Positions 23,409 to 41,318 of a stretch of DNA of 64,000 nt are shown here, piece after piece. Source of the stretch: Natrinema longum (lineage in GTDB: Archaea; Halobacteriota; Halobacteria; Halobacteriales; Natrialbaceae); NCBI RefSeq assembly GCF_017352095.1, contig NZ_CP071463.1, positions 1,860,001 to 1,924,000 on the forward strand, read 5' to 3'. Made by a program: the position numbers and the translations under genes. How positions within the stretch are numbered: the first letter of the stretch is position 1; each line of letters begins with the position of its first letter. The notes below the pieces were generated by a model. That model worked only from the letters and a program-made list of their open reading frames with translations. It was not told where the DNA came from and searched no databases.

Positions 23409-24248
23409 TTACTCGTCGCCGTCGTCGCCGTGCCAGGAATCCGGGACGTCGATGACGTACCGGCCGTCTTCTTGCAGCGAGATGATGTACTCGTCGCGGT
23501 TGTAGAGTTCCATCAAATTGAGTTCGTACTGTCCCGGCCTGACGATCTTGATGCTCTCGAACTGTTCGTTGAGTTCCGCACGCAGTTCTTCGATCGACGG
23601 TCGCTGACCGCTGGGTTCGCTGACGACGCGACCGTGCTCCGGCGGCTGGTCGGTATCGTCCCTCCCGTCGGCGTCGTCGCTACCGTCGGCATCGCCGGCG
23701 TGAGATGGCAGATCGTCCGTAGGAACGACATCGCTGCGGGCGTCCGCTTGTGCCGAGTTCTCGTCGGTCGCCATCGTCGCGGTCGTCTCACGATCGGACC
23801 GCGTCGACCACTCTGCTTCCGCTCGGTCGTCGCTCCCGTCGAATTCCGCTCGGTCGTCGGCCTCGGTCTCACTCGAGGAGTCATTGGCCGTCTCCTCCGA
23901 AGAACCAGCTCGATCGGCAGGTCGGCGTGCCGTCTCGGGCCACTCGTCGAACCCTCCCTCCGGCGTCGTGCTCGAGTCGTCGGAACCCGGAGAGGATTCA
24001 GCGGACACCCAGTCGCGAACCGTCTCCGCGGCACGCGTCGTGACGCTGTCCGACTCCGAAGCGGGAGCCTCCGCTGGCGGGCTCGCAGTATCGCCCGCTC
24101 CCGAGTCCGCGGATCCGGTGGACGATTCGGCTGCGGCCGTCGGCGGCGCGAACTGGAACTTGTTCCCGCCACAGTCGGGACACCCCGACAGCATCTCCTT
24201 GGAGCCGTCGGCGAACGTTCGGCCGCAGTTCGTACACTGATGTGGCAT
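23409..24248 (-). CDS. oapC: Zinc-ribbon protein OapC/ArvC
   Basis: The 279-residue protein has an N-terminal zinc ribbon with Cys at residues 5, 8, 23 and 26 (CTNC and CPDC). A long acidic, Ser/Glu/Asp-rich disordered linker follows (about 33-215), and a conserved C-terminal domain (RPSIEELRAELNEQFESIKIV to PDSWHGDDGDE). In haloarchaea it is encoded with the small GTPase OapA/ArvA and OapB/ArvB, linked to origin association and extracellular vesicle formation. The start overlaps the oapB stop by one base (TAATG). Confidence 0.85.
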   Translation of the reverse strand: MPHQCTNCGRTFADGSKEMLSGCPDCGGNKFQFAPPTAAAESSTGSADSGAGDTASPPAEAPASESDSVTTRAAETVRDWVSAESSPGSDDSSTTPEGGFDEWPETARRPADRAGSSEETANDSSSETEADDRAEFDGSDDRAEAEWSTRSDRETTATMATDENSAQADARSDVVPTDDLPSHAGDADGSDDADGRDDTDQPPEHGRVVSEPSGQRPSIEELRAELNEQFESIKIVRPGQYELNLMELYNRDEYIISLQEDGRYVIDVPDSWHGDDGDE

Positions 24249-24649
24249 TAGTTACGGGACACGAGCGCGCTGATGAGCGTTTCGTCCTTGTGGAGCGTCT
24301 CGATCTGATTGGCAGGACCGATCACCGTCAGCTTCGCTTCCCCCGCGTCGCTTCCCATGATACGGCCAAGCAGGGACGAATCCCTGGTCTCGGACTTGGG
24401 ATAGGTCTCGATCTCGATCCCGTTGAACTCGTCGGGGCTGATTTCGGCCATCGTGACCTCGATGAGCCGGCTTTCCTCGTCGGGCGTCAGACCTTCCTCC
24501 AGGATGACGATGTTGCCGTCGTGGACGCCGTCGAGGATCATCCTGATCTTCTCCATCGTTGCCATTCCGTCCATGCGCTCGCCGCTGATCAGGTCGATCT
24601 GTACGCCGTCGGGTGCGTCCGAGTCGTCCGCGTTGGTTGCTTTTGGCAT
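24248..24649 (-). CDS. oapB: OapB/ArvB, partner of the OapA GTPase
   Basis: The 133-residue protein begins MPKATNADDSDAPDGVQIDLISGERMDGM. The family's conserved helical segment MEKIRMILDGVHDGNIVILEEGL and the C-terminal TVIGPANQIETLHKDETLISALVS are visible. A GTG at 24658 would overlap the oapA stop directly, but the ATG at 24649 matches the usual N-terminus better. It is the middle gene of the oapA-oapB-oapC operon. It has no catalytic motif and probably binds the GTPase. Confidence 0.85.
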   Translation of the reverse strand: MPKATNADDSDAPDGVQIDLISGERMDGMATMEKIRMILDGVHDGNIVILEEGLTPDEESRLIEVTMAEISPDEFNGIEIETYPKSETRDSSLLGRIMGSDAGEAKLTVIGPANQIETLHKDETLISALVSRN

Positions 24650-24654: not shown

Positions 24655-25293
24655 TCACCCGAAGTACTCCGCGATGTTGTCGTACACTTCGTCCATGTTC
24701 TCGCCTTCCTTCGCCGAGAGGGGGACGGTCTTGTGCTGTGGGAAGGCGTCCTCGATCCGCTTGACGCTCGACTCCTTGAGGTCGATCTTGTTCGCGAAGA
24801 TCAAAACGGGGAGCTCGCGGGATTCGATGATGCCGATCAGCATGGTGTTGACCTGCGTAATCGGATCCTCCGCGCTATCCAGAACGTAGATGACGCCGTC
24901 GACGTCTTCTCGGAGCCAGTGCATCGCCTCGGCGACCCCCTCGGTCGCTTCGCGGGAACGGCGAATGGCGTCCTCTTTGTCCATCTCGTCGGTGAATTCT
25001 TCGTAGTCGACTTTCGTCGTCACGCCGGGCGTGTCGACGATGTCGATCGTCACCGTCTTTCCGTTCCGTTCGATCTCGACGTCTTCCTTCCTGCGTGCAC
25101 GACGCGTTTCGTGGGGGACGTGACTCTCCGCACCCACTGCATCACCGGTCCAGTCACGAGCAATACGGTTTGCGAGCGTCGTCTTGCCAGCATTGGGCGG
25201 ACCGTAGATACCGATTCGTTTGGGCTCCTGTTCCGAAAACAGGCGATCCGTAGCCCGAGAGATACTATCTTTGAGTTCTGTGAACAGTCCCAT
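24655..25293 (-). CDS. oapA: Era-like small GTPase OapA/ArvA
   Basis: The 212-residue GTPase has G1 GPPNAGKT at residues 31-38, G3 DTPG near 89, G4 NKID near 168 and G5 SAK near 194. An N-terminal amphipathic helix (MGLFTELKDSISRATDRLF) probably attaches it to the membrane. In Haloferax volcanii the homolog drives vesicle budding (ArvA) and its gene sits next to the replication origin (hence oapA). Here it heads the oapABC operon and faces an origin-like region, which preserves half of that neighbourhood. Confidence 0.92.
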   Translation of the reverse strand: MGLFTELKDSISRATDRLFSEQEPKRIGIYGPPNAGKTTLANRIARDWTGDAVGAESHVPHETRRARRKEDVEIERNGKTVTIDIVDTPGVTTKVDYEEFTDEMDKEDAIRRSREATEGVAEAMHWLREDVDGVIYVLDSAEDPITQVNTMLIGIIESRELPVLIFANKIDLKESSVKRIEDAFPQHKTVPLSAKEGENMDEVYDNIAEYFG

Positions 25294-25483
25294 CTATTGG
25301 GCCCTCCAGCACCGCGGGGTGCATCTGCGCGTACTACAAACTGTACCCACTTAAGCCTACGTCAGACGTATAGAATATTCGACGACACCGAATTAGTATC
25401 GACGGTAACTGTCCTCGAATCTGTAAGACGGATCGGAGCGTCAGAGGCGAAACGATAGCTGGTTGCGAACGGGTGTCAGGATA

Positions 25484-25531
25484 CTATGCATCCTACACCA
25501 GAGAGTGCTATGCATCGTATGCCAGAGTGTG
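25484..25531 (+). repeat. 24-bp tandem direct repeat with ATGCAT cores
   Basis: Copies at 25484-25507 and 25508-25531 agree at 20 of 24 positions. Both begin CTATGCATC and end with CCAGAG-N-GTG. They lie outside the ORB pair, on the oapA side of the origin region. Confidence 0.65.
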
Positions 25532-25597
25532 CCAGAAGACCGCACACCACGATAGATAATATCGTACTAGTATAGAACGGCTGTCCGTGTTCCGAGA

Positions 25598-25622
25598 CCC
25601 CCACCCCTTCGTTTCAAGTGGA
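25598..25622 (-). repeat. Origin recognition box (ORB), left copy
   Basis: Read on the minus strand the box starts TCCACTTGAAACGAAGGGG and ends with the G-string TGGGGG. It differs from the right copy at a single base. The dyad half plus G-string matches haloarchaeal and crenarchaeal Orc1/Cdc6 sites. Confidence 0.75.
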
Positions 25623-25739
25623 GAGTGACGAGGGAGTGGGTGAGGAAATGGGATGAACGGTCCCGATCGAGGGGAGTCCAGCCCCGTGTTTCGACTCGAG
25701 TCGGGTTTCAGGGTGATTTCGGCGGCGAATTCACCGATA

Positions 25740-25880
25740 GCGATCGCTCTAGTAATATAGGAACGAGTCTAGCAACCTAGGCAGCCAAGAGAAGCAGTTC
25801 TAGCAGGAACTAGTAAATACAAACAATACCCTAGTAAAGTAATTCGGTCTGCTAGTTCTGCGGATACTGTTTCCTCGCCA
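25740..25880. other. AT-rich candidate DNA-unwinding element
   Basis: This stretch is clearly richer in A and T than its surroundings and carries CTAGTAA at 25749, 25810 and 25831, plus related CTAG words. Lying between the inverted ORBs, it is the expected melting site. Confidence 0.55.
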
Positions 25881-25940
25881 TAGACATAAAACTTCCCGTC
25901 CAAAAATGCCATCGAACCCCCACCCACCTCTGTGACTCGT

Positions 25941-25965
25941 TCCACCTGAAACGAAGGGGTGGGGG
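25941..25965 (+). repeat. Origin recognition box (ORB), right copy
   Basis: The box starts TCCACCTGAAACGAAGGGG and ends in a G-string. It is the inverted counterpart of the left ORB, 319 bp away edge to edge, with its G-string pointing outwards to the TFB gene. An extra CCCCCACCC run sits just before it (about 25914-25926). Confidence 0.75.
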
Positions 25966-26188
25966 GCCACTCCCGATATCCCACGATCCATCAAACGCAC
26001 TCTCACTCGCTGACCCGAACTGACTGTAACTTCTCCCGACGGCGGACCTTACGCGATCCCGAGTCTATAGCGGAGTGAAGTTCTGTATCGGATCGATATT
26101 AAAACGAGGTCGAAAACCGCGCGTCTACGCTCCCACCGCGCTCATTCCGTTCCGATCCGTCGATTCTCCCTCTACCTTCCGGTGGAGA

Positions 26189-27154
26189 TCAATCGTGAAT
26201 TCCCATCGCCTCGATCTGTTCCTGATACCGGTTCCGAATGGTGACTTCCGTCACCTGTGCGACATCAGATACCTCTCGCTGGGTCTTCTTTTCGTTACAG
26301 AGCAACGAGGCTGCGTAGATCGCGGCGGCGGCGTAGCCGGTCGGCGACTTCCCGGAGAGCAGTCCTTTCTCGGTCGTCGTATCGATGATCTCGTTTGCTT
26401 TCACCTGGACTTCCTCGGAGAGCTCGAGTTCCGAGCAAAAGCGGGGCACGTACTTCTTGGGGTTGACTGGCTCCATCTCGAGGTTGAGTTCCTGGGCGAC
26501 GTAGCGATAGGTGCGGCCGATCTCCTTGCGCTCGACCCGTGAGACCGCGGCGACTTCCTCGAGCGATCGGGGAATACCTTCCATGCGACAGGCAGCGTAG
26601 AGCGTACTGGTCGCGACGCCCTCGATCGAGCGGCCGCGGATGAGGTCTTCGTCGAGTGCGCGCCGGTAGATGACGCAGGCGACTTCGCGGACGGATCGCG
26701 GGATCGCCAGCGAGGAGGCCATCCGGTCGGTCTCGGAGAGGGCGAACTGGAGGTTCCGCTCGCCGGCGTCTTTGGTTCGGATTCGTTCCTGCCACTTTCG
26801 CAGGCGGCGCATCTGGTTGCGTTTGTCCGAGGAGATCGACCGACCGTAGGCGTCCTGGTTCTTCCAGTCGATCGACGTCGTTAGCCCCTTGTCGTGCATC
26901 GTCTGGGTCGTCGGCGCGCCGACGCGGGACTTGTTCTGGCGTTCGGAGTGGTTGAACGCACGCCACTCGGGCCCGTGGTCGATGTTTGCCTGTTCGACGA
27001 TGAGTCCACACTGATCGCAAACGAGTTCGCCCTGATCTTCGCTTTTGACGAGCGTCCCGCTCTCACACTCGTCACACACCCGTTCACGCTCCGACTCCTG
27101 TGTTTTGGTTGTCGTTTCAGGATCGCGTTCGCGCTGACGGGTGGGGCTTGCCAT
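26189..27154 (-). CDS. tfb: Transcription initiation factor IIB (TFB)
   Basis: The 321-residue general transcription factor recruits RNA polymerase to TBP-bound promoters. An N-terminal zinc ribbon has Cys at 27, 30, 46 and 49 and is followed by the B-finger/linker ([19 protein letters not shown]). Two cyclin-like repeats follow, near 125-205 and 220-310. The ATG at 27154 follows a CTTAAG box at 26-33 nt. Haloarchaea carry several TFB paralogs; this one borders the origin-like region, where an orc1 gene would be expected. Confidence 0.93.
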
Positions 27155-27334
27155 TTCATGTTGATAACGATGTTCCAAGGACTTAAGGACTCGCCACCGA
27201 AGACACGCGCCCGGATCGATCGCTCGGATCCCATATTCCGGCTTCCCGGCCGACAAAGACGATCTCGAGGGGAAACGACGGTCTCGAGGAGGACCGAATC
27301 CTACTGGGACGGGTTTCGAACGTCCCGGACGAGT

Positions 27335-28858
27335 TCAAACGTACCCGAAGAGCGTTCCGACCAGTACGAGCACCCACATGACCGTGCCGACGAGCAGCAT
27401 ATCGTTGAATTTCGACCGCCGAGTGGCTCGTTTGGCAGCGCCGGCGGCGATCAGGCCGAGTGCAACGACGACGAGCATCCGTTGGAGGACGACATCGACC
27501 GGGAGCGCGTTGACGCCGAGCAGGCTGTAGTCGAGCCAGATCGCGACTGCGAGCGAGCCGGCGGCGACGACGGCGGCGTCGAGTCGTCGCGTGAGCCCGC
27601 GTGCGAGCAGATAGGTTGCGACCGGAATTCCGATCCCGATCACTGGGTACAACAGCGCGGCGATCTGGTGTGGCGTCAGAAACCCGGCCTGGCGCTCGAG
27701 GGCGAGCCCACCCATTCGAACGCCGAGATACAGCGCCAGGATCGTAAAGACGAGGAGGACGTGGCCGGCCTCGAGACGGGCGTAGGCGGCGACCAGCCGG
27801 CGGCGATCGACGTCGGTCAGGTGGTCGTCGATCGCGGTGGCTGTCCCTTGGGCGACGCGTTCGCTCGTGGACTCGCCGGTCCCGGCGGGACCGCTGGCGT
27901 GGCGTCTGCGGGTTCGGACCCCGACTATCGTCGGAACGACCAGCAGCCCGGCGAGTTCGACGACGGTCGCCCAGCCGTCGGCGTCGGCGGAGTTTCTGTT
28001 GTCGAGATACATTCGGTGGACGTTCTCTTGGACGTCGACTCGCGGGTGTTCCATGAAGTCGTTCTCGACTTTCGTCTGGGCGTCCTGTGAGCCGTGGACG
28101 CGGTGACGGAGCGTAAACCAGTCGAAGTGTTCCGAGTGCGTCTGCATGATGACCCAGTCGTCGTCCTCGTTGGGGCTCTCGTAGAGTCGAATGTGGTATC
28201 GTTGTCCGTAGTAGTCGCCGTCCTCGAGTTGGCGGGTTTCGGTCGTCCAGTAGCCACTCTCGTTCGGCCCAGGGTCGACGTACGCATAGCGAGTGCCACC
28301 GTCGGCCTGCCCCCAGTCGAGATTCGGGGCAGGACCCAGCGGTTCGGCCGGCGGCGCGTCGTCGGTGGCGTTCGTCGACGAGTTGTTCGGCGCTGGTTCG
28401 GTGCCGTTTTCGTCGATCGCTTCAATTTCGCCGTCGCCGGTCGGATCGGTTTCGTTATCGGATTCGTTCCCGCTAGTCGGCTCGGTTTCGTTGTCTGATT
28501 CGTTCCCGCCGGTAAGCGAGTAGGTATCCGGGAGCGCTTCTTCCTCCGATTCGTTGATTTCGGACCAGTCGCCGTCGTTGGCGTTGGTCAGGACGCGCTC
28601 GACGTCGTCGGTGTCGCCGCGGACGACGACGTTGATCGGACTCGTCCGCTTGAACCCTTCCCGCGCGCTGAGATACTGCCAGAAACTGCTTTCGGAGTCC
28701 TCGAGCGAGACGAGTTCCGGCGTCGGCTTCGCCTCGGTCTGGGTCGTCGTGGCGGGTGCGGTCTGGTCGGCTGACAGCGACACCAGCAGCGACGGTCCTC
28801 CGACGAGCAAGAACGCGAGAACGAGCAAAACGACCGTGATTACGATCGAGCGGCGCAT
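27335..28858 (-). CDS. Haloarchaeal membrane protein with large external domain
   Basis: The 507-residue protein has an N-terminal membrane anchor (residues 4-28) and a large acidic external part up to about residue 295. The external part contains a Ser/Asn/Glu/Thr-rich spacer with the duplicated unit GNESDNET(E/D)PT near 118-140 and several N-x-(S/T) sites. A C-terminal membrane bundle of about six helices follows (300-507). The external domain has the Trp/Tyr-rich stretch YYGQRYHIRLYESP. I recognise no enzyme motif. Confidence 0.7.
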   Translation of the reverse strand: MRRSIVITVVLLVLAFLLVGGPSLLVSLSADQTAPATTTQTEAKPTPELVSLEDSESSFWQYLSAREGFKRTSPINVVVRGDTDDVERVLTNANDGDWSEINESEEEALPDTYSLTGGNESDNETEPTSGNESDNETDPTGDGEIEAIDENGTEPAPNNSSTNATDDAPPAEPLGPAPNLDWGQADGGTRYAYVDPGPNESGYWTTETRQLEDGDYYGQRYHIRLYESPNEDDDWVIMQTHSEHFDWFTLRHRVHGSQDAQTKVENDFMEHPRVDVQENVHRMYLDNRNSADADGWATVVELAGLLVVPTIVGVRTRRRHASGPAGTGESTSERVAQGTATAIDDHLTDVDRRRLVAAYARLEAGHVLLVFTILALYLGVRMGGLALERQAGFLTPHQIAALLYPVIGIGIPVATYLLARGLTRRLDAAVVAAGSLAVAIWLDYSLLGVNALPVDVVLQRMLVVVALGLIAAGAAKRATRRSKFNDMLLVGTVMWVLVLVGTLFGYV

Positions 28859-28981
28859 CTATCCATAGCTAGCGACAGGGAATACATCAAACTATCTGCC
28901 CGAGACGATATGTTTCCCTCCGAGAGGGACGATTTCGACCGAGCACATCGTCGTCCCTGTCGTTTCGAGGGGGGCGGCTAT

Positions 28982-29410
28982 TCAAACGCCGGGTCCGACG
29001 GTGGTGACGGGAACGGGGGCCTCGCGGACGACCCGCTGGGAGACGCTTCCGACGACGTTGCGTTCGTACTCGTCACCGCTGGTTCCCATGACGATCAGAT
29101 CCGTCCCGTTGGTCGCGGCGTAATCGACGATACACTCGGCGGGGTGGCCGGTTTCGACGGCGGTCACTGTCTCGACGCCGTGATCGGTAGCGCGCGTCGC
29201 CGCCTCGTCGACCGCCTCGCGAGCGGTGGTCTCGAGGTCCTCGCGGACGCGCTCGATGCGGTCGTCGTCGAGCACGAGAAACGCGCGGTCGTCGACGACC
29301 GAAAGGACGTGCAGGGTTGCGTTTCTGGTGGCCGCGACGTCGATCGCGTGGTCCGCGACGGTCGCCGCGTGCTCACTGCCGTCCGTCGGAAAGAGGATCG
29401 TCTCGTACAT
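28982..29410 (-). CDS. Universal stress protein, UspA family
   Basis: The 142-residue protein starts MYETILFPTDGSEHAATVADHAIDVA and ends with the nucleotide-loop-like GTSGDEYERNVVGSVSQRVVREAPVPV. The G-x2-G-x9-G-S/T pattern is present in altered form: GTSGD replaces the common GTHGR, so ATP binding may be weaker. Single-domain length is typical. It is probably a cytoplasmic stress or signalling protein; its partner is unknown. Confidence 0.88.
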   Translation of the reverse strand: MYETILFPTDGSEHAATVADHAIDVAATRNATLHVLSVVDDRAFLVLDDDRIERVREDLETTAREAVDEAATRATDHGVETVTAVETGHPAECIVDYAATNGTDLIVMGTSGDEYERNVVGSVSQRVVREAPVPVTTVGPGV

Positions 29411-29614
29411 CGCTGTCTACGTAGACCACTCGCCCGGACGGAAAAAGGGGTTTCCTTCCGTTCCCCTGGCTGGGAACATCGCGTCGAACCGCGTCTCGGG
29501 TCCACGTCGGGCCCACCACGGCGGCTGTGGTCCGGTTCGTCCTGCCCTCGAGGCCCCACCGGTTCGAGCCGACGCCGTCAACGTGTGGGCCCCAGCCGTC
29601 TCGACGTGTGTCAC

Positions 29615-29977
29615 CTAGACGCCTGGAATGCCGAGTGCGTCGGGCGTCACGAACCCGACGACGGCGAAGGCGTAGACGATCGCGACCGCGACGATCCAGG
29701 CGATGAAGCCGATCGCGACCGCCGATCCCCAGCCACCGGGATAGCGCCAGTTGATGACCCCGACCCAGATGATCAACATCAACAGGACGCCCAGAATGGG
29801 AACCCACCCGACGAAGAAACTCGTAATCGCCCAGGCGACCGCGCCGATCAGCGCGGTCACCGCCGCGTTCACGACGCTCGCATCCCGGTCTAACACCAGC
29901 CGCGCGCCTGCGAGAATACCGATCGTTCCCACGAGCAGGCTCAGGACGAAGATCAGGACGGAGTCGGCGGCAGCCAT
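29615..29977 (-). CDS. Four-span membrane protein
   Basis: The 120-residue protein has about four membrane helices (residues 5-28, 36-58, 60-76, 84-110). The conserved-looking RDASVVNAAVTALIGAVAWAI and VINWRYPGGW loops are visible. It ends 1 bp from the amphi-Trp gene's stop and reads the same way, so they form an operon. Function unknown. Confidence 0.7.
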   Translation of the reverse strand: MAAADSVLIFVLSLLVGTIGILAGARLVLDRDASVVNAAVTALIGAVAWAITSFFVGWVPILGVLLMLIIWVGVINWRYPGGWGSAVAIGFIAWIVAVAIVYAFAVVGFVTPDALGIPGV

Positions 29978-29978
29978 G

Positions 29979-30218
29979 TTAGGGTTTCCAGCTCAGTTCG
30001 ATCTCGACCGTCTCACGGTTCCCCCGGAGCATCGACGAGCGTTCGACGACCTCGACGGATACGTCGACGTTCTGGGGCGGGTCGAGCGACACGTTCTTGT
30101 TCCCGACCGGCACGGTGACTGCCTCCTCGCTTTGCCCGAACTCCGTCGCGAGTTCCTGGAGGTAGGCGGCGAGTTCGTCTCGAGGGAGCGTCTCGTCGGC
30201 TGTCGTCCGTTGCGCCAT
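29979..30218 (-). CDS. Amphi-Trp domain protein
   Basis: The 79-residue protein starts MAQRTTADETLPRDELAAYLQELA and ends ETVEIELSWKP, the repeating amphipathic-strand-plus-Trp ending that names the amphi-Trp family. It has a helix followed by strands. The ATG at 30218 is preferred, as a TATA-like TACTTTTG lies 25-32 nt upstream on the minus strand. First gene of a two-gene operon with the four-span membrane protein. Role unknown. Confidence 0.8.
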   Translation of the reverse strand: MAQRTTADETLPRDELAAYLQELATEFGQSEEAVTVPVGNKNVSLDPPQNVDVSVEVVERSSMLRGNRETVEIELSWKP

Positions 30219-30259
30219 GCGGGGATATCGAACAGCTGCCCGCAAAAGTATGGGCTGCA

Positions 30260-30278
30260 AACGTGTTCCTAACACGTT
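30260..30278. promoter_or_regulatory. Inverted repeat upstream of the amphi-Trp operon
   Basis: AACGTGTT-CCT-AACACGTT is a perfect 8-bp inverted repeat about 10 bp upstream of the predicted TATA box (30243-30250). The position suits an activator; it also follows the KaiC-like gene's stop at 30351 and could be a terminator. Confidence 0.4.
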
Positions 30279-30350
30279 GTTACTGCCGGAACCGCTGTTG
30301 TAACGGACGACTGATTCCCCAGCTAGGTCACTGCCTCGCGGGACCGGTCG

Positions 30351-31415
30351 CTAGAACAGGTTGGCTTGCTGATATACGGAGATCCCGTCGGCCGTGATCT
30401 CGTACGGTTTCTTTTCTCGAGAGTGGTTGGCGTCGCGGATCTTCTGAATCTCGATCGCCATCCGGGTTTCCCGGAAGTCGTCCGGCCGGACGTACTGGAG
30501 GACGAAGACGGCATCCGTGAGATACTCGACGATGCCGTATCGGGAGGCGTAAGGCGTCTCCTCGGATGCCTCGCTCGTCAACAACGCGGTGACGCCTGCC
30601 TCCTTCAAGCTCCGGGAAAAATCGTATATTTCGTTGCGACGTTTCGCTCGATCCTCGTACATCATCTCGAGCAAAGAAACCGAGTCGAGGACGAGCCGCG
30701 AGGCGTCGAACTCCTCGACGAGCGTGGGGAGTTCGTTCCGGATCGAGGCCAGACTGTTGGCCATCTCGATCGGATCGACGTCGACGACGGCGAGTTGGCC
30801 GTCGGCGACGTACTCGTCGAACGCGTATCCCTTTTCGGTTGCGCTGTTGATGACTCGATCGCGGCTTTCCTCGAGCGTGATGAAGACCGCTCGCTCGCCC
30901 TGCTCGAGTCCGTGGGTGAGAAACTGGAGGCCGAACGTGGTCTTGCCGGTTCCGGCGCTGCCCATCGTAACGATGAGCGACCGCTCGGGAACGCCACCCT
31001 GGATCATCCGATCGAGCCCCTCGATGCCGAGTTCGAGTCGCGAGAGTTCGGAGTCGATCTCCTCGTCGAAGTCGGGTTCGTCGCTCCCCCCCAACACGAA
31101 ATCGAGATCGTCGAACCCCTCGGGACCGCTGGTAGCGGCCCCATCGGCCGCAGCGTCGGTCATCGGGGCGTCGACGTCCTGGAGGGCGTCGCCGAACTCC
31201 TCCTCGAACAGGGGGTCATCGTCGTCGGTCGCCTCCGCCACGTCCCCCTCCCGTGTCGAGTTCGACTCGGTGTCAGCGTCGTGCTTGCCGGCGTCGTCGC
31301 CCGCCGAACCGTCGCTAGCGGTGGGTTCGGCTTCGGGTGTCGGCGGCGTTCGCTCCTCGTCCGTCTCCTCGTCGTCGAGTGCCCGTTCGAACCAGTCGTC
31401 GGTGTCGTCACTCAC
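30351..31415 (-). CDS. KaiC/RAD55-like ATPase
   Basis: With the GTG at 31415 the protein is 354 residues. An acidic disordered N-terminus (about 1-125) precedes a single RecA/KaiC domain. It has Walker A GSAGTGKTTFGLQFL near 152, the EE-type switch TLEESRDRV and Walker B RLVLDSVSLLEMMY. The C-terminal half continues to AIEIQKIRDANHSREKKPYEI. Single-domain KaiC-like ATPases are common in haloarchaea as signalling or motility scaffolds; which process applies is not visible. A GTG at 31424 is an alternative start. Confidence 0.8.
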   Translation of the reverse strand: MSDDTDDWFERALDDEETDEERTPPTPEAEPTASDGSAGDDAGKHDADTESNSTREGDVAEATDDDDPLFEEEFGDALQDVDAPMTDAAADGAATSGPEGFDDLDFVLGGSDEPDFDEEIDSELSRLELGIEGLDRMIQGGVPERSLIVTMGSAGTGKTTFGLQFLTHGLEQGERAVFITLEESRDRVINSATEKGYAFDEYVADGQLAVVDVDPIEMANSLASIRNELPTLVEEFDASRLVLDSVSLLEMMYEDRAKRRNEIYDFSRSLKEAGVTALLTSEASEETPYASRYGIVEYLTDAVFVLQYVRPDDFRETRMAIEIQKIRDANHSREKKPYEITADGISVYQQANLF

Positions 31416-31646
31416 GGCGACCACCCGGCGTGGGTCCGGTCTTGGGCGAGCGTCGCTGGCGGATCCGACTGCTGGTGACGACAGCGACGTGACGGGGGGT
31501 ACTCGAGTAGACGGTGGCCATAGGTGACACTGCGACGGAATCGTCGCGGGAGTTCACGTATCCGAAGTCGTTCCAACCGGATTAACTTTGTTGCTGTCGG
31601 CGGGACAAGCGTGGCTTTTTCATCACGGGGCGGGTATCCGCCGACG

Positions 31647-32483
31647 ATGGACGTTGCCGTCGGAATCGTCGCCCAGCGTGAGAACGAACGTGCACAGACA
31701 CTCGCCGGGAGCCTCGTGGAGACCCTCGAGCGCGAGGGGTCGAACGTCGTCGTCGACGAAGCGACCGGCGAGGCACTCGAGGCGACGGCCGTCCCGGTCG
31801 CCGCGATGGCGGGTCGTGACCTCGTCGTGAGCATCGGCGGTGATGGAACGCTGTTGTTCACGGCCCGCGAGGTGGGTTCGACGCCGCTTCTCGGGATCAA
31901 CCTCGGCGAAGTCGGCTTCCTCAACGCCGTCGCGCCCGCGGATGCGGTCGACGTCGTCACTGCTCTCGTGACCGAACTCGAGGAAACGGGGACCGTCGCG
32001 GGCCGCGAACTGACGCGGCTCCGGGCGACCGGAGTCGGCGAGGACTGGACGCTCGAGCCCGCCCTCAACGAGGTCGTCGTCCACGGGCCCCGCCGGGGGA
32101 ACGGCGGTGGCGCGACCGTCGACATCCGCGTCGACGGCCAGCAGTACGCCGAGAGCCACGCCGACGGCGTGCTCGTGGCCACGCCGACGGGCTCGACCGC
32201 CTACAACTTGAGCGAGGGGGGGCCACTCCTCCACCCGACTGCGGAGACCCTCGTGGTCACGCAAATGGCCGCGACCGAGTCGATGCCGCCGCTGGTCGTC
32301 GAACCGGACACCGAACTCACCCTCACCGTCTCCGACACCGACACCGCGTACGTGATCAGTGACGGCCGCAACCGACAGCGCCTCGAGCCCCCGTCGACGG
32401 TATCGGTCTCCCTCGCCGCCGAATCCGTCAGGCTCGTCGGCCCACGGGGGAATTTCTTCGACGCGCTCGACAAACTGGAGTAG
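31647..32483 (+). CDS. ppnK: NAD kinase
   Basis: The 278-residue kinase phosphorylates NAD to NADP. The hallmark GGDGT is at residues 64-68, followed by the NLGEVGFL motif near 85 and TPTGSTAYNLSEGGPLLHP (conserved NAD-binding stretch) near 180. Length is normal for archaeal PpnK. It diverges from the KaiC-like gene and meets the DsbA-like gene end to end with no gap: the stops are at 32481-32483 and 32484-32486. Confidence 0.92.
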   Translation: MDVAVGIVAQRENERAQTLAGSLVETLEREGSNVVVDEATGEALEATAVPVAAMAGRDLVVSIGGDGTLLFTAREVGSTPLLGINLGEVGFLNAVAPADAVDVVTALVTELEETGTVAGRELTRLRATGVGEDWTLEPALNEVVVHGPRRGNGGGATVDIRVDGQQYAESHADGVLVATPTGSTAYNLSEGGPLLHPTAETLVVTQMAATESMPPLVVEPDTELTLTVSDTDTAYVISDGRNRQRLEPPSTVSVSLAAESVRLVGPRGNFFDALDKLE

Positions 32484-33137
32484 TTACTGGTCGCCTTCCA
32501 CGAGTCGCTCGAGGTGTTCCGGCGGCACCGCGCCGCGGGCGACGTGCCCGTCCGAGAGGAAGGTCGGAACGCCGGTGATGCCCGTCTGCTGGGCCTGGGC
32601 GAATCGATCCTCGAGTTCGGCCCGGCGGCTCTCGTCTGCGATCGCCTCGCGAATCTCGTCGGCCGGTAGGTCGACGTCGTCGGCGAGGTCGGCGAGTACT
32701 TCGACGTCGCCGATGTCGCGTCCGTCCTGCCACAGCGCCGTGTAGATCGCCTCGTCGAACGCCTCCCAGCGGTCGGGATACGCTCCGTTGACGTACCACG
32801 AGGCGACCTGCGCGTCGAACGAATCGATATCGGTCGCGATGTCCAGCGTCATCTCGACGCCGTACTCCTCCTGTAGCCGACGGACGTTCTGTTTGGCCTG
32901 CTCGTAGTAGCCCTCGTCCTTCCCGTCGTCGGCGTCGTGATCGATGGAGCCGTCCGGGTTTCGCTTCCCGCGTCGCAGGTCGAAGGGATGCCACTCGACG
33001 GCGAGTGGCTCGTCGCGACCGTCGCGGTACTGCTCGAGCGAGCGCGTCCCCAGATAACAGAACGGACAGACGTAGTCCGCGTAGATCGTTAGTCGATCCC
33101 CGGTCTCCGGCGTCGATCCGGTATCGGCGTCAGCCAT
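32484..33137 (-). CDS. DsbA/FrnE-type thiol oxidoreductase
   Basis: The 217-residue thioredoxin-fold protein has the redox motif CPFC at residues 24-27, a long helical insertion (about 70-165) and the cis-Pro loop GITGVPTFLSDG near 187. This is the DsbA/FrnE family, which oxidises or isomerises cytoplasmic thiols or acts as a 2-hydroxychromene-2-carboxylate isomerase-like protein. No signal peptide is present, so it is cytoplasmic. Confidence 0.9.
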   Translation of the reverse strand: MADADTGSTPETGDRLTIYADYVCPFCYLGTRSLEQYRDGRDEPLAVEWHPFDLRRGKRNPDGSIDHDADDGKDEGYYEQAKQNVRRLQEEYGVEMTLDIATDIDSFDAQVASWYVNGAYPDRWEAFDEAIYTALWQDGRDIGDVEVLADLADDVDLPADEIREAIADESRRAELEDRFAQAQQTGITGVPTFLSDGHVARGAVPPEHLERLVEGDQ

Positions 33138-33244
33138 GGATTCGGTAGGTGTCCGTTACGGAAAAGTCGCCGGTCACCGGCAGTCGAGCGACGGCCAGCC
33201 GAGACGAGGCACGGACGCGGCTCGAGGAGTCGCTCTCCGGGCGG

Positions 33245-34009
33245 TCAGCTCTCGGTTCCGGTCGCTACCCGGCTCGCACTGTCGGCATTCGACTTCGTCA
33301 CGTCCGGCAGGTTCGGATCTCGGTAGGGGTTGTGACCGTACGCGGGCAGCTCGTCGTCGAGTTGGGATTTGAGGACCCGGCGCAGGCGATTCAGGCTGGT
33401 CGTATCCAGCCCGTATTCGGCCGCGAGCCGCTTGAACGACTCTTCGTCGGTAATGTCGTGGGCCCGGTACTGTGTGAACAGGTCCTCCATCCGGTCGGCG
33501 GACAGTTCCTGCGCGTCGATCTCGTCGAGCCCGAAGTACTGCTGTCGGTCGACGTCGACGACGTGACGGATCACGACCAGTGCGACCTTGGGAATCGCCC
33601 GCTGGCTCCCGAACTCGGTGAGGTCGATCTCGTCCATGACGCCGAGCGCGAGATCGCGCTGCCAGGGCGTCACCTCGAGGGCGTTACATAGCGCCTGCGT
33701 GGTTCGCAGCCGGTCGAGACGGTGGGCGCGCTCGCTGTAGCCCGGCGTCGCCGCGTGCTGTTCGTCGTGGAGGCGGCGCACGCTCTCGGAGAGGTCACCC
33801 TCGGGCGACTCCGCGCGGCCGATGACCGTCGCGCTCGGCGTGACGACGCCCCACCGGCGGACCGTCGAATCGCGCTGGACGTCCGCCCGCGAGAGCGACC
33901 CGGACCCCGGACGGGTCTCGAGGCGGCGCTCGTCGTCGGGGGCGACGCCGTCTGCAGCCCCAACGGGTCGCTCGGAATCGGGACTCGGGTCGGCACCGTC
34001 GTCTTGCAT
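33245..34009 (-). CDS. DNA-directed RNA polymerase subunit epsilon (haloarchaeal)
   Basis: The 254-residue protein has an acidic N-terminus, then a conserved block beginning RRWGVVTPSATVIGRAESPEG and AHRLDRLRTTQALCNALEVTPWQRDLALGVMDEIDLTEFGSQRAIPKVALVVIRHVVDVDRQ. That block looks like the haloarchaeal protein annotated as RNA polymerase epsilon, with a cyclin/TFB-like helical fold. The ATG at 34009 gives the best N-terminus. How it contacts polymerase is not known to me. Confidence 0.7.
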   Translation of the reverse strand: MQDDGADPSPDSERPVGAADGVAPDDERRLETRPGSGSLSRADVQRDSTVRRWGVVTPSATVIGRAESPEGDLSESVRRLHDEQHAATPGYSERAHRLDRLRTTQALCNALEVTPWQRDLALGVMDEIDLTEFGSQRAIPKVALVVIRHVVDVDRQQYFGLDEIDAQELSADRMEDLFTQYRAHDITDEESFKRLAAEYGLDTTSLNRLRRVLKSQLDDELPAYGHNPYRDPNLPDVTKSNADSASRVATGTES

Positions 34010-34192
34010 CGTCTGTCGCTCGGAGAGGGAGAGTAAAAAAGGCTCGCTCCGCGCAATACCCTTGGAAACCGGACACACAACGTTTCTAACAGGAACGTGT
34101 GCAAAGGAGATCTCGCACGTGACTGGCGCTGTCGCTCCGGTATCGGCGACGTTCTACTTCGTGACCGGGACCGTCCGTCCGCGAAAAGCCCT

Positions 34193-34226
34193 TCGTAGCT
34201 TCACCTTGTGACCAGAGGTACTTAAA
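34193..34226. repeat. Dispersed 34-bp element, copy 1
   Basis: TCGTAGC, then TTCACCTTGTGAC, then seven variable bases and ACTTAAA. The inverted repeat TCAC-CTT-GTGA is followed 8 bp later by a TATA-like ACTTAAA (TTTAAGT on the minus strand). It lies 184 nt upstream of the minus-strand epsilon gene. Confidence 0.75.
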
Positions 34227-34330
34227 CGACGGTCGCTCGAAGGACGACCAGCCATCGAGCAGTGTCGGACTGCCGACAGCCCGGGCTGTGGTGAATCGAA
34301 TCTCCCGCAAAACCGGGGGCGTCTCTCCCG

Positions 34331-34364
34331 TCGTAGCCTGACCTTGTGACGAGAGATACTTAAA
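34331..34364. repeat. Dispersed 34-bp element, copy 2
   Basis: Same order and spacing as copy 1, but TTCACC is CTGACC, so the inverted repeat is weakened. Ends ACTTAAA. Just downstream of the RlaP-like gene's stop. Confidence 0.75.
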
Positions 34365-34392
34365 TGGACCCGCGGATCGACGACCGAAGTCG

Positions 34393-35313
34393 CTACTGGA
34401 CGGCTGCGAGTAACTCGTCGAGATACTGGTCCAGCCGTTCGGTCTCGGGGCCGGCTCTCGCGTGTATTTCGGGGTCGATCGGGGTCGGTGGGTGAGCGAA
34501 CTCGCGGCCGACGGCGTCGCCGATCGGGACTCCGCCCTCACCCCTTCGTTTCCGCTCGAGCAGCTCGCGAGCGCGTTCGATCCGCTCGGGGTCGAAGACT
34601 GTCGGTGCCTGCTCGTCCAGGAACCGCTCGAACTCGAGGGCCGGCAACTCGTGGTCACCACGCTCGCCGGTTTCTTCGAGGTAGTACGCGGACATCGCCG
34701 CTCGATAGATCGTCAGATTTCGCTTCACCGTGGGTTTCGTTTGCGTCTCGGTAAACCGCTCGTCGTCGGCCGGGACGGTCATCGTTCCGTTGTCGGTTTC
34801 GACGACGAACGCCTCGTCGTCGGCGTCGACGATCGGGAAGAGTTCGTCGTCGGTGCGGACCAGATGCTGTGAGATGTACTTGCGATAGTTGCTCGTCGCG
34901 ATGCCACGCCACGTGTGATACAGGTCGATCGGGTTGTAGGTCCGCTCGAGGTAGTCGGCGAGGTCGGTGAGGTCGTACGCGCGTCGATACCGGATCGGGC
35001 TCCGCAGCAGGTCGATCGCGCTCTCGTTCGACTCGGAAAGCAGTCGGACGAACGTCCGTCCGTCCCAGCCCTGATATTCGAACTCGCTTCGGTCCTCGAC
35101 GATCGTTTCGGGGGGACCCTCGAGATGGGCGTATCGGCGCAGATCGGTCGGCGCGTAGACGAAGCCGACATCGTAGTCGCTGTCGGGGCTCGCCCCGCCC
35201 CAGGCGTGGCTCCCGCGGGCGACCGCGACGGCGACCGCGACGTCGTACGTACGTTCGATCGCCCGCAGGTGGTCGTCGACCGTTTCGTGGATGCGTGGGA
35301 GAACAGTGGCCAT
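34393..35313 (-). CDS. RlaP-type nucleotidyltransferase
   Basis: The 306-residue protein begins MATVLPRIHETVDDHLRAIE. Its nucleotidyltransferase motif GSHAWGGASPDSDYDVGFVYA lies near residue 34, with the two catalytic Asp in DSDYD. The family (PF10127, YcgL/RlaP) is sometimes linked to RNA ligase systems, but no ligase gene is nearby. The rest is helical and acidic, with the closing RLDQYLDELLAAVQ. Substrate unknown. Confidence 0.8.
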   Translation of the reverse strand: MATVLPRIHETVDDHLRAIERTYDVAVAVAVARGSHAWGGASPDSDYDVGFVYAPTDLRRYAHLEGPPETIVEDRSEFEYQGWDGRTFVRLLSESNESAIDLLRSPIRYRRAYDLTDLADYLERTYNPIDLYHTWRGIATSNYRKYISQHLVRTDDELFPIVDADDEAFVVETDNGTMTVPADDERFTETQTKPTVKRNLTIYRAAMSAYYLEETGERGDHELPALEFERFLDEQAPTVFDPERIERARELLERKRRGEGGVPIGDAVGREFAHPPTPIDPEIHARAGPETERLDQYLDELLAAVQ

Positions 35314-35369
35314 GGCTGTGGCTCGAGTGTCGAACGGAGACGAGAGAACGCCGGCGTGCCAAATGCCCT

Positions 35370-35403
35370 TCGTAGCTTCACCTTGTGACGGGAGACACTT
35401 AAA
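35370..35403. repeat. Dispersed 34-bp element, copy 3
   Basis: TCGTAGC, TTCACCTTGTGAC, then seven bases and ACTTAAA. It lies 57 nt upstream of the minus-strand RlaP-like gene start (35313), and beyond the stop of the S2P gene. Confidence 0.75.
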
Positions 35404-35459
35404 GAACGATCCGGACGGCGCTGTTACGTGAGTTCACAGTTGTCGCCCCGGCGAGTGGG

Positions 35460-36599
35460 CTACCCCGCGACCTCACTCCCGAAGCCACGTCGAACCGTCA
35501 TGGCGTGTGCGTAATCGGCTTTCGAGAGCACACCGACGAGTTCCCCGTTCTCCTCGACCAGTGCGTTCGCGTTCCCCGACTGGTTCAGAACGGCCAGCGT
35601 CTCGAAGGCGTCGGCGGTCGACTCGATGCGGGACACAGCCTCCATCACGTCCTCGATGCGGGTCGTCCCGCGGTCGTTGCCGCGAGCCGTGCGGAGGTCC
35701 GCGAGCGTGACGACACCGATGACCGCCCCGGCATCGTCCGTCACCAGATGGATCGACCGACGGTCGCGAAGCAGCTGGTCGCCGAACTCCTCGACCGTCG
35801 TGTCGGCCGAGACCGTCGGGGGATCCTTGGTCATGATGTCCCCGACCGTGATTCCCTCGAGCAGTTCGTCGAGGAGCACCGATCGCGATTCCGTCGTCGC
35901 GGCTCCGTAGATGAAGAAGGCGAGCAGGAGGAGGATGAGCTGGAAGGTGAAGACGCCGACGATGGCGAACAGGAACGCAAACGCGACCCCGACCCGCGCC
36001 GCGATTCGCGTTGCGGTGCCGTACGGACGGGAGCGAGCCAGGAGGGCGCGGAAGATCCGTCCGCCGTCCATCGGGAAGGCGGGAAGGAGGTTGAACCCTG
36101 CCAGTAGCAGGTTCGTGACCGCCAGATAGCCGACGACGAACCGCACCGCGTGGAGAGAGGTCGGCGCGACGAGCACGCCCGCATAGCAGACGGCGGCGAT
36201 GAGGACGCTCGTGATGGGGCCGGCGATGGCGATCCAGAACTCCCGGTCCCACTCCTTCGGGAACGTTTTCAGCGACGCTATCCCGCCGAGGATCCACAGG
36301 GTGATCGAATCGATTTCGATGCCATACCGTAGTGCGGCCCACGAGTGGCCGAGTTCGTGCAGGGTAACGCTCACGAACAAGCCGACTGCTGCCGTGATAC
36401 CGATGAGCCACGGCATCGCCCCGGCCCGGAGCCTGGAGAGGTCGAATCCCACACCGGTGAACCCTTCGATGAACCCGGCGTACAGTTCGATCTGCTGGCC
36501 GCTTCCGATGAGCCACGCGAGGATCGGGAGGAAGATCAGCAACGAAGTGTTGATTCGAATAGGAATCTCCCAGATCTCCGTGATAGTGTAACTTCGCAC
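35460..36599 (-). CDS. Site-2 protease-like metalloprotease with CBS domains
   Basis: The 379-residue intramembrane protease of the M50B family has HELGH at residues 81-85 and the second metal-ligand motif NLLPAFPMDGGR near 175, each within hydrophobic helices. Two CBS domains form the C-terminus (about 245-300 and 310-375), suggesting control by adenosine nucleotides. It should cut membrane-anchored regulators. Length and architecture match archaeal S2P-CBS proteins. Confidence 0.9.
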   Translation of the reverse strand: MRSYTITEIWEIPIRINTSLLIFLPILAWLIGSGQQIELYAGFIEGFTGVGFDLSRLRAGAMPWLIGITAAVGLFVSVTLHELGHSWAALRYGIEIDSITLWILGGIASLKTFPKEWDREFWIAIAGPITSVLIAAVCYAGVLVAPTSLHAVRFVVGYLAVTNLLLAGFNLLPAFPMDGGRIFRALLARSRPYGTATRIAARVGVAFAFLFAIVGVFTFQLILLLLAFFIYGAATTESRSVLLDELLEGITVGDIMTKDPPTVSADTTVEEFGDQLLRDRRSIHLVTDDAGAVIGVVTLADLRTARGNDRGTTRIEDVMEAVSRIESTADAFETLAVLNQSGNANALVEENGELVGVLSKADYAHAMTVRRGFGSEVAG

Positions 36600-37049
36600 A
36601 CGTCCTGCTAGGACCTCGGGGCCTTAGGTGACCTGAAAGCGATTCTTCGATGGTCCGCAGCGTTTATTCGCGCGAGATAATCACAGTCCCTCCGGAGCGG
36701 TCTGCTGCCCGTAAGAAAGCGATCGGAGCCACCGAACCGATTCACGCTGCTCGCAACCCTGTCGTGCGATCGGGTGGACAGTGACGTTCAGTGACAACCG
36801 TATTTCGCATCGACCGATCTCCGAACCGTTCGCGAGCGGGAGACAGCCGACTCTCGAGAACGAACGCATCGCGACTACCGAAGTAACGAACTAGAGAACG
36901 GCGGTCGCCCCGTCATAGCTTCACCTTGTGACGGGAACCACTTAAAGAAACGACGACCCGCTCGAGACGGCAACGGTACTATCGGGTCCGTCGAGCCAAC
37001 AACTACTGGTTCCGAAAGGTTGAATCGATCGCTCCCCTGAATGCGGGCA
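36600..37049. other. Intergenic region, 450 bp
   Basis: The region between the divergent S2P and mptA genes contains copy 4 of the dispersed element (36913-36946). The rest has no convincing coding frame. Confidence 0.55.
36913..36946. repeat. Dispersed 34-bp element, copy 4
   Basis: TCATAGC, TTCACCTTGTGAC, then seven bases and ACTTAAA. On the plus strand, ACTTAAA is about 105 nt before mptA; on the minus strand it could drive the S2P gene with a leader of about 310 nt. Confidence 0.75.
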
Positions 37050-37976
37050 ATGAGTCATCAGTTGCCGGACGTGCAGGCGACGTCACCCGACGTCACCGTC
37101 GGCCTGAGCCAGGTCGGCGTTACCGGCGTCGACAAGCTCGTCAAGATCGCCCGCGAGGGGAAGCGGCCGATCGTTCTCACTGCCGAGTTCGAGGTCTTCG
37201 TCGATCTTCCCGGCTGGCGCAAGGGCGCGGACATGAGCCGCAACATGGAAGTAATCGACGAGATCCTGGAGGACGCCACCCGCGAGGAGGCCTACGGCGT
37301 CGAGGAGGTCTGTGGCGAGGCCGCCGAACGGCTCCTCGAGCGCCACGATTACACGTCGCGGGCGGAGGTCTCGATGGAGGCCGAGTTCATGCGGCGCGAA
37401 CAGACCCCTGCCAGCGATCGCGAGACCCAACACACCGTCGACATCGTCGCGTCGGCGACGGCGACCGAGGACGGCACCCGCGAGGAGATCGGTGCACGGG
37501 TCACCGGCATGACCGTCTGTCCCTGCTCGCAGGGCATGTCGACGGCCCGCGCGAAGCAGACGCTCGAGGATCTGGGCGTCGAGGAGGAGACGATCACGGA
37601 GTTCCTCGAGGAAGTGCCACAGCCTGGCCACTCCCAGCGGGGTCACGCGACGCTGACTGTCGAAGCCAACGGCGATCCGTCCGTCGATCTGAACGACATC
37701 ATCGACATCGCTCGGGACTCGATGAGTGCGCGGATCTACAACCTCGCGAAGCGGCCCGACGAGGACTACATGACCTACGACGCCCACGCCGACGCGAAGT
37801 TCGTCGAGGACTGCGTCCGTGCGCTGGCGGAAGGCGTCGTCGACGAGTTCGACCACTTAGCCGACGACGCGGTGATCACGATGAGCCAGTCCAACGACGA
37901 GTCGATCCACCAGCACAACGCCCACGCCGAGCGGATCGTCGAAATGGGGACGCTTCGCGACGAGATCAGCAACTAG
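37050..37976 (+). CDS. mptA: GTP cyclohydrolase MptA (FolE2 type)
   Basis: The 308-residue enzyme opens GTP to 7,8-dihydroneopterin 2',3'-cyclic phosphate for pterin and archaeosine synthesis. It begins [23 protein letters not shown]. The metal/substrate loop [15 protein letters not shown] lies near residue 156, and [12 protein letters not shown] and [26 protein letters not shown] follow. The ATG at 37050 is chosen over 37041. Its stop overlaps the convergent TrmB-like gene's stop within CTAG. Confidence 0.92.
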
Positions 37977-38776
37977 AACTCGAGGGGCTCGGCCTGTTCC
38001 CAGCGCGGCACGAACTCCTCGTGGACGTTCGCGGCGAACTCCGGATCCTTCAGGTCGATCATGCCGAAGGCCTCGCCCGAGGACAGCGGGTTGGGTACCT
38101 GGATACACACCTCGACGCCGTCGATGAGGTTGAACGACCCCGTGACGTCGTCGTGCGTGCGGACGTCGAAGTCGTCGCGTTGCTGTAAGGTCTCCCGGTA
38201 GCGCCTGCCCACCTCCTCCGACATCGAGCCGACCATCTCGCGAGTCATCAACAGGTCGACCGAGACCCCGCGATCGAGCGCGTCCTCGAGTTGGGCGTTG
38301 ATCTCCTCGCTGACCGCCTGCATGTCCCACTGGGGGGAGGGGTGTGAGGACACCATTACGATGTCCCGATCGGCGGCTGCCAGCCGCTCCAAGAGGAGAT
38401 CGATCGTCTCCTCGGGGCCGACGGCGGCGGTCCAGAACTGTTCTTCGACCGGCTCGGCCGCGTCGAGTTCGTCGGCGAGGTCGTCGACGATCGACTCGTA
38501 CTGATCGGCCTTTTCCTCGAGTTCGCGTTTCTTGTCCTCGAGCAACCGATCGAGGGCCGTCGAGGGCTCGACGGCGACGTACTTCTTCGGGCGGCTCGCG
38601 GTCTGGCTCCGGACCAGGTTGTACTGTTCGATACTGTTTAACACGTCGTAGATCCGCCCCATCGGGACGTCGCTCGCCCGGGACAACTCCTTGGCCGTTG
38701 TGGGGCCGGTGGTGAGCAACGATCGGTAGGCTCGAGCTTCGTACTCGGAAAGCCCGAGATCCCTGAGACTGGCCAT
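37973..38776 (-). CDS. TrmB-family transcriptional regulator
   Basis: The 267-residue protein begins [21 protein letters not shown], the winged-helix TrmB domain (about 5-75), with recognition-helix region [20 protein letters not shown] coiled-coil linker and a C-terminal sensor-like domain follow, with a PLD-like HPSPQWDM region. TrmB proteins usually sense sugars or sugar phosphates and bind operators near metabolic genes. The target here is not visible. It converges on mptA with a 4-nt overlap. Confidence 0.85.
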
Positions 38777-38858
38777 GTCGAAACGCAATCCACTGAAGAA
38801 ACATAAACGCTGTGGTAGTTTGGCGATGCGACGGGTTCGGCCGGTAGGGAGCCGAGCG

Positions 38859-40508
38859 TCAGTCGAGAACGGTCCGAACGCGTTCGCTCAACTCGGCCGG
38901 AGTTTCGGCAGGAGCTGACACGTGATCGCCCCGCTCGGCCCGCGCCGTTCCAGCCGCGAGGCCGTCGGCGTCGGGAACGACGACTTTCTCGTGGTCCGCG
39001 AGCCGAAGCGCCGCCCGATGGAGGTCCGAACCGGGGTCGGTTGCGACCCGGATCACCAGCGGACCCTCGAGCAGTCGGGAGACGGCCGTCGCGTAGCGGG
39101 CGATCTGGACCCCGAAGCGCTCGCTGGCCCCGGCGAATGCCTCGAGCGTCTCCCGTGCGAACTCGCGGTATCGATCCTCGCCGGTCAGGGCCGCCAGATC
39201 GATCAACGCGTCCGCGAACGCGACGTTCGAATCGAGCGGCCGTAGCGGCCGATCGCACAGGCCGACGCCCTCGGCGGGGCCGTCGAGGAACGAATCCTCG
39301 TCGTGGAGCCGGTCGATCGTCGTCTCCGCGACGGCCGTCGCGTCCGCGAGCGTCTCCGTCTCGAGGGTGCTCGCGGCCGTCGTCAGTGCCGCCAGCAGAC
39401 GGGCCTGGTTCGTGAGGAGACACACCGCGTCGCCGTCGTGATCGAGTTCGACGTCGTCTTCGCGTGCGTGGGCGACGACGCCATCGACGAGCAAGTCCTC
39501 GCGGACGGTTGCGAGCGCCCGTTCGGCGTACCGGCGGGCGCGTTCGTTGTCGGTATACGAGTAGTACGTGAGCAGCCCCTCGATCGCGAGGGCGTTGGAG
39601 CCGGCGAAGATCCCGTCGTCGACCGGTGGCTCGGCGGCAGCGGCTCGATCCGTCGCGTCGAGACTGTGGGCGTCCGCCGCTCCGGGGGCCTGGCTGTTCG
39701 CGAACGCGTCGGCCTCGTCGTTCCACAGCGTCGTCGTCAGGAACTCGATCGTCCGATCGGCTGGCTCGCGGTACTCGTCCTTCCCAGTCAGCAGGTAGGC
39801 GTTGGCGAAGGCCCGGACGAGCGCGCCGTTGGAATCAAGCAGTTTCTCGCGCTGGAGGCCCGACCAGTCGCGATCGGTCGCGAACCGATAAAAGCCGCCG
39901 TCGTACTCGTCTAACAGGTTCGCGCCGACCGCGTCGTACGATCGCAACGCCATCTCCCGGTCGCGTTTCAACGCGAACTCGAGGGCGTCGGGCAGCGGGA
40001 ACTTCGGGCTCTCCCCCCAGCCCCCGGCAGTCTCGTCGTAGGTGTCGGTGAGGTGTCCGAGCATGCCCGTTTCGATATCGGGGGCCAACTCGCCGGCTGG
40101 CGGGTTGTCCTCCCGCAGCGGCCGGGGGACGCGCGCCGCGCCGCTACCTTTGGTCTGCCACATGGTTCGGACGCTGTCGAGGACCTGTCGCATCCCGTCG
40201 GGACCGAGATAGCCCGCGCCTGTCAGCACCGAGCCATCGGGGGCGAGAAAGACCGTCGAGGGGAACCCACCCATGTTGTAGCGATCGCGAACGCGCGGAT
40301 AGCGATCCACGTCGACGCGGACGGGGACGAAACTGTCGTTGACGTTGGCCGCGATCCGGGGCTCCGAATACGTCTCCTCGTCCATCTCGTGGCAGTGATC
40401 GCACCACGTCGCGGTCAGCGAGAGCAAGACGGGACGGTCGGCCGACGCCGCTTCGTCGAAGGCCGCCGCTCCCCACTCGCGCCACTCGACGCGGGTCGTA
40501 TCGTCCAT
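38859..40508 (-). CDS. DUF255 thioredoxin-domain protein (YyaL/SPATA20-like)
   Basis: The 549-residue protein has an N-terminal thioredoxin-like domain with ATWCDHCHEMDEETYSEPRIA near 38-58 (CDHC redox motif), then a large helical domain with (alpha/alpha) toroid-like character, including GGWGESPKFPLPD and DGGFYRFATDRDW. Bacterial and human homologs have uncertain functions. The start is set at MDDTTRVEW (40508); 40523 is an alternative. Confidence 0.88.
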   Translation of the reverse strand: MDDTTRVEWREWGAAAFDEAASADRPVLLSLTATWCDHCHEMDEETYSEPRIAANVNDSFVPVRVDVDRYPRVRDRYNMGGFPSTVFLAPDGSVLTGAGYLGPDGMRQVLDSVRTMWQTKGSGAARVPRPLREDNPPAGELAPDIETGMLGHLTDTYDETAGGWGESPKFPLPDALEFALKRDREMALRSYDAVGANLLDEYDGGFYRFATDRDWSGLQREKLLDSNGALVRAFANAYLLTGKDEYREPADRTIEFLTTTLWNDEADAFANSQAPGAADAHSLDATDRAAAAEPPVDDGIFAGSNALAIEGLLTYYSYTDNERARRYAERALATVREDLLVDGVVAHAREDDVELDHDGDAVCLLTNQARLLAALTTAASTLETETLADATAVAETTIDRLHDEDSFLDGPAEGVGLCDRPLRPLDSNVAFADALIDLAALTGEDRYREFARETLEAFAGASERFGVQIARYATAVSRLLEGPLVIRVATDPGSDLHRAALRLADHEKVVVPDADGLAAGTARAERGDHVSAPAETPAELSERVRTVLD

Positions 40509-41242: not shown

Positions 41243-41268
41243 CGGTTCGCACGGGTCCGGGAGAAAGA

Positions 41269-41282: not shown

Positions 41283-41318
41283 CCACCGGGCAACTACCGA
41301 GTGCGACGAAGGAGCGGC

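Follow-up and report, generated by a model that had tools for sequence, protein, structure and literature searches.

We analysed a window of 64 kb (positions 1,860,001-1,924,000) from a genome assembled as one 3.59-Mb contig, whose GTDB species is the one that includes Natrinema ejinorense. At window 25598-25966, adjoining oapABC, lies a conserved haloarchaeal origin of the oriC1 type (Table 1). Its left box, TCCACTTGAAACGAAGGGGTGGGGG (25598-25622, minus strand), and its right box, TCCACCTGAAACGAAGGGGTGGGGG (25941-25965, plus strand), are equal at 24 of 25 bases, as stated in the original prediction, which had noticed two inverted 25-bp boxes around an AT-rich core. The core is likewise present: AT content reaches up to 60%, against about 35% for the region, and seven CTAG sites fall within about 100 bp (25749-25852), against a window average of 0.42 per kb. 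Columns of this core are kept across 12 origins, some of them without an adjacent orc1. The repeat finder showed that the ORB boxes are part of an inverted repeat, I1, whose 48-nt arms are 77% complementary and lie 272 nt apart. ORB-consensus sites (at most three mismatches) number three in the window, against 0.01 expected from shuffles, and nine in the whole genome, all of them within 1.72-1.90 Mb, with none for the backward control. A weight matrix built from the ORBs of relatives gave no score of 12 or more in 200 kb of background.

Table 1. Features of the origin and of its two flanks, in window coordinates (G074, near relative used for synteny)
Feature	Position	Strand	Basis or remark
oapC	23409-24248	-	Pfam PF09845, 97.3 bits
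oapB	24248-24649	-	Pfam PF09846, 143.5 bits
oapA (= arvA), small GTPase	24655-25293	-	Pfam GTPase domains; 91-99% identical in most family genomes
Left ORB with G-string	25598-25623	-	CTCCACTTGAAACGAAGGGGTGGGGG; weight-matrix score 39.2
G-rich inner arm of I1, adjoining left ORB	25624-25645		Part of 48-nt inverted repeat
AT-rich, CTAG-dense core, candidate duplex-unwinding element	25741-25880		AT content and CTAG density
Conserved core motif TGCTAGTTCTGCGGATACTGTTTC	25850-25873	+	Sole genome-wide match (at most three mismatches)
C-rich inner arm of I1, adjoining right ORB	25918-25939		Part of inverted repeat I1
Right ORB with G-string	25940-25966	+	TTCCACCTGAAACGAAGGGGTGGGGGG; weight-matrix score 36.8
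Junction spacer, right ORB to TFB stop	25967-26188		T-rich on TFB strand
TFB gene, in usual orc1 place, reading towards origin	26189-27154	-	Pfam TFIIB, 175.5 bits
Transplanted block with TFB (-357 to -344 kb in G074)	26193-41561		Synteny blocks

Pfam domains confirm both neighbours that had been predicted, oapABC on one flank and a TFB gene on the orc1 flank, and the window is without any orc1/cdc6 match, again as claimed. The orthologue of this TFB gene is found elsewhere in relatives of the genus; in G074, a near relative that keeps the ancestral order and that we used as the reference for synteny, its distance to the origin is about 357 kb. Homology to the orc1-side spacer of the relatives stops directly after the right ORB. 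Downstream of TFB, the T-rich junction spacer contains GGTTTTCGACCTCGTTTTAATA, and the T-rich tracts between TFB and the origin may limit read-through of TFB towards the origin.

Two lone ORB-like sites were observed outside the origin. The weaker one (window 34537-34560, score 22.3) has a counterpart in N. ejinorense JCM 13890. The other, at 1828347-1828370, is on the same strand as tRNA-Gln(CTG) and follows its 3' end by about 48 bp; a strict pattern detected a similarly spaced ORB in no fewer than 41 of the 116 family genomes (backward control 0), commonly about 25-40 kb from oapA, and this putative site possibly serves Orc1 titration or control.

A genome-wide search for the initiator family gave one weak, divergent match besides seven orc1/cdc6-like genes of full length. 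Some 160 kb away from the origin, at 1,725,491-1,727,260, lies the canonical haloarchaeal Orc1 gene: its product scores 652.8 bits against the NF001625 equivalog cut-off of 501 bits, which none of the other orc/cdc6-like genes passes. The original prediction had left open whether the initiator gene was moved or lost. Loss is ruled out, since the canonical Orc1 is encoded on the same chromosome, while displacement is upheld: compared with G074, the orc1 piece has changed place and the origin has stayed with oapABC. The gene order in relatives, which we compared as the prediction had proposed, agrees, in that orc1 neighbours the ORB pair and oapABC in the relatives mapped. Near three other orc genes (at about 2933, 1266 and 161 kb) we observed inverted repeats unlike the oriC1 ORBs, which are candidate further origins.

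The relocated orc1 has kept binding-site-like sequences of its own. One ORB is found just upstream of its start and one inside the gene, as in relatives, and a closely spaced inverted ORB pair lies about 2.7 kb past its end, again as in relatives; in total, six ORB-like sites occur at 1,724,894-1,730,009. The pair (1729926-1730009, about 60 bp apart) sits inside the polymerase D small-subunit gene and has moved with orc1. Both the orc1 promoter box and the boxes in the polymerase gene fit the same ORB matrix as the origin boxes. Upstream of the relocated orc1 the DNA shows no AT-richness, and neither CTAG nor the core motif occurs there.

Comparison with G074 locates the breakpoints. The left arm is collinear through oapABC and the origin, up to just beyond the right ORB, where the order jumps to the block from -357 to -344 kb of G074, with TFB, and later to +68.6 kb. 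The orc1 piece, 6 kb long (G074 +1.1 to +7.1 kb) and carrying the polymerase D small-subunit gene too, is now found among fragments from G074 -117, -229 and -139 kb, and the segment that follows it in G074 (+7 to +14 kb) is now at 1.22 Mb. Since the piece with orc1, those next to it and the +7 to +14 kb segment are scattered over several places and orientations, several events are needed and a simple single inversion is rejected. Ten genes near the junctions were scanned for domains, and no transposase domain turned up among them. A cluster of short palindromic repeats lies at the breakpoint to the left of the relocated orc1 (about 1724480-1724880) and also occurs at about -121 kb in G074. Elsewhere, a stretch of about 23 kb (1828563-1851739), beginning beside the tRNA-Gln gene, is not matched by any of the G074 stretches compared; its scanned genes resemble those for sugar uptake and metabolism.

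In N. ejinorense JCM 13890, of the same GTDB species, TFB, origin and oapA are joined as they are here, and orc1 is likewise at the distant site. As the two strains share the rearrangement, all differences between them postdate it. We aligned the ORB-core-ORB segment of the two strains and found 343 of 368 positions matched (93% identity; 25 mismatches and 4 gap columns), against 295 of 366 in the near flanks (81%; 71 mismatches and 186 gap columns). The difference gives a Fisher p of 3e-7 for mismatches alone, a value that takes sites as independent and comes from one comparison in one species. The core has thus been conserved while the flanks decayed, which suggests, at the level of sequence, continued selection on the origin after the split. 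A conserved origin is not necessarily a much-used one: several more orc genes and possible origins are present in this genome, and H. volcanii remains viable even when it lacks its origins (PMC4010727).

We then placed this arrangement within the family Natrialbaceae. In 105 of 116 genomes, no more than about 6.5 kb separates orc1 from oapA (in five of these 105, the pair spans contig ends and the contig was assumed to be circular). The two genes are apart in a further 10, and G086, where they fall on different contigs, is counted in neither group. Of 80 named haloarchaeal loci, 76 offered 4 kb of room or more, and orc1 stands beside oapA in 74 of the 76, the exceptions being Natrinema ejinorense and Saliphagus infecundisoli. 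Within Natrinema, the genomes examined have orc1 beside oriC1, N. ejinorense excepted. The pieces do not always sort in the same way. In N. ejinorense the origin has stayed with oapA. The ORB pair has gone with orc1 in S. infecundisoli (G114) and G020, oapA being 137 and 98 kb off, respectively, with no ORB pair at oapA in either genome. Genus g24, in five genomes, has the ORB pair apart from both, 148 kb-1.3 Mb from orc1 and 43-367 kb from oapA; the two boxes are about 320 bp apart, as is usual, and a carbonic anhydrase gene adjoins the pair in three of the five. Pairwise alignments within g24 have 0-1 gap columns in the core and 2-74 in the flanks. The separated genomes (N. ejinorense, G020, G114 and g24) fall in four genera, two of which, g1 and g9, also hold species with the ancestral order, while the other two are separated in every genome examined; counting by genus rather than on a tree, we estimate that orc1 and oapA have come apart in four lineages. 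The oapA gene itself varies in two family genomes: in G106 (L090 9071-11116) it contains an in-frame intein in the GTPase P-loop region, with intein splicing and LAGLIDADG domains, and in G109 it gives the same split match.

Judged by its inverted ORBs with halophile G-strings, its AT-rich core, its place beside oapABC and the canonical Orc1 encoded in the genome, the element is an oriC1 by descent. In haloarchaea, origins have been predicted on condition that an orc/cdc6 gene adjoins them (PMC3528665); here TFB adjoins and the nearest canonical orc1 is about 160 kb off, so that we describe the element as an oriC1 orthologue without initiator-gene linkage. Taking together what can be read from the DNA, that is, the anatomy of the origin, the position of orc1, the rearrangement, its recurrence in the second strain and the conservation of the core, we consider it very probable that this is an ancestral oriC1 whose orc1 was moved away by rearrangement and that works with Orc1 supplied in trans. 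Most likely the origin fires, and Orc1 made about 160 kb away is probably what fires it. Service in trans is likely because orc1 has moved away and because plasmid assays show that Cdc6/Orc1 can act in this manner: in H. volcanii and H. hispanica, origin-only plasmids replicate with Cdc6 supplied from elsewhere in the cell (PMC3936714, PMC4010727). The rearrangement would have taken orc1 and the polymerase D small-subunit gene about 160 kb off on the same chromosome, and the TFB block would have taken the place of orc1, the ORBs, G-rich repeats and core remaining beside oapABC. Orc1 from the distant locus would then diffuse to the ORBs and bind them, and the bound protein would open the core and load MCM.

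Alternatively, the origin may have been silent since orc1 left, the chromosome starting elsewhere and the conserved sequence being a relic, or else a control site bound by Orc1. We consider this improbable, although the other orc genes, three of them with the inverted repeats mentioned above (2,933, 1,266 and 161 kb), could provide such starts, and Haloferax mediterranei is known to have dormant origins (PMC4595724). GC skew lends activity at 1,885.7 kb no support either: it is weak, with no clear switch there, over the 344 contiguous kb and scattered stretches sampled. However, the core too, and not the ORBs alone, was kept after the split in both strains, and in g24 the ORB pair and core are gapless or nearly so while the flanks vary. 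It is also conceivable, with a very small probability, that another Orc/Cdc6 paralogue took over oriC1, as the genome has at least six other orc/cdc6-like genes. Yet the genome retains an intact canonical Orc1, and the promoter box of orc1 itself belongs to the ORB type of the origin, whereas three paralogue loci have inverted repeats of another type and the rest have no ORB-type match; moreover, each H. hispanica origin depends on its own Cdc6 (PMC3936714). We give an equally slight chance to the possibility that the active oriC1 travelled with orc1 and uses the ORBs around that gene. The six ORB-like sites there agree with it, as does the minimum of the cumulative GC skew, which falls near 1.725 Mb in the sampled stretch, although the skew is too weak to mark an origin and we gave this minimum no weight as evidence; but the locus has no AT-rich stretch, CTAG or core motif, the mapped relatives have such orc1-associated sites (5', inside and downstream) besides their main ORB pair, and in G074 the skew forms a broad peak, not a dip, near the origin. 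Finally, that orc1 truly adjoins oapA in the source strain, which the original prediction had named as a refutation, is hardly credible: origins and repeats can be misassembled, but the independent JCM 13890 assembly repeats the junctions, and we reject an artefact.

An ancestral oriC1 served in trans by a displaced orc1 remains our preferred reading, and it bears on how archaeal origins are defined. Reviews treat them as replicator-initiator pairs (PMC3528665, PMC4010727). Action in trans was already known from plasmids; what is new is a natural chromosome with an oriC1 that lacks an adjacent initiator gene, together with signs of continued selection on the unlinked oriC1 and with lineages that split origin, orc1 and oapABC differently. 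We lean towards a wider interpretation, in which the oriC1 of Natrialbaceae would be a self-sufficient cis element, parted from its initiator, from oapABC or, as in g24, from both in at least four lineages and still selected, so that replicator-initiator linkage would be dispensable on natural chromosomes. The oapABC genes are now known as the vesicle-forming ArvABC (PMC10927574), and the three-way split in g24, where the origin is apart from oapABC, argues against a necessary link between the two. Prediction based on adjacency can miss a main origin, and the split lineages are natural test cases for a role of linkage in timing or copy control.

The closest known systems are oriC1-cdc6A of Haloarcula hispanica (PMC3936714) and the oriC1 of other haloarchaea (PMC3528665), which are alike in their inverted ORBs with long G-strings and share the inner G-rich inverted repeat, the AT-rich core and the flanking oapA GTPase gene. 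The G-rich arm next to the left ORB looks similar to the G-rich enhancer repeat inside the H. hispanica origin, although the inner repeat of the latter is perfect and the arms here are imperfect (PMC3936714). The main difference is that orc1/cdc6 is directly adjacent in those origins, whereas TFB is adjacent here. Within the same genus, oriC10 of Natrinema sp. J7 is a predicted origin without an adjacent cdc6, reported to replicate on plasmid pFJ6, and is not shown to be oriC1 (PMC5350488). The Sulfolobus origins (reviewed in PMC4010727) are alike in having oriC1 ORBs recognised by Cdc6-1/Orc1-type initiators; there, an initiator gene adjoins each origin and is needed, whereas in the present chromosome the initiator gene is distant.
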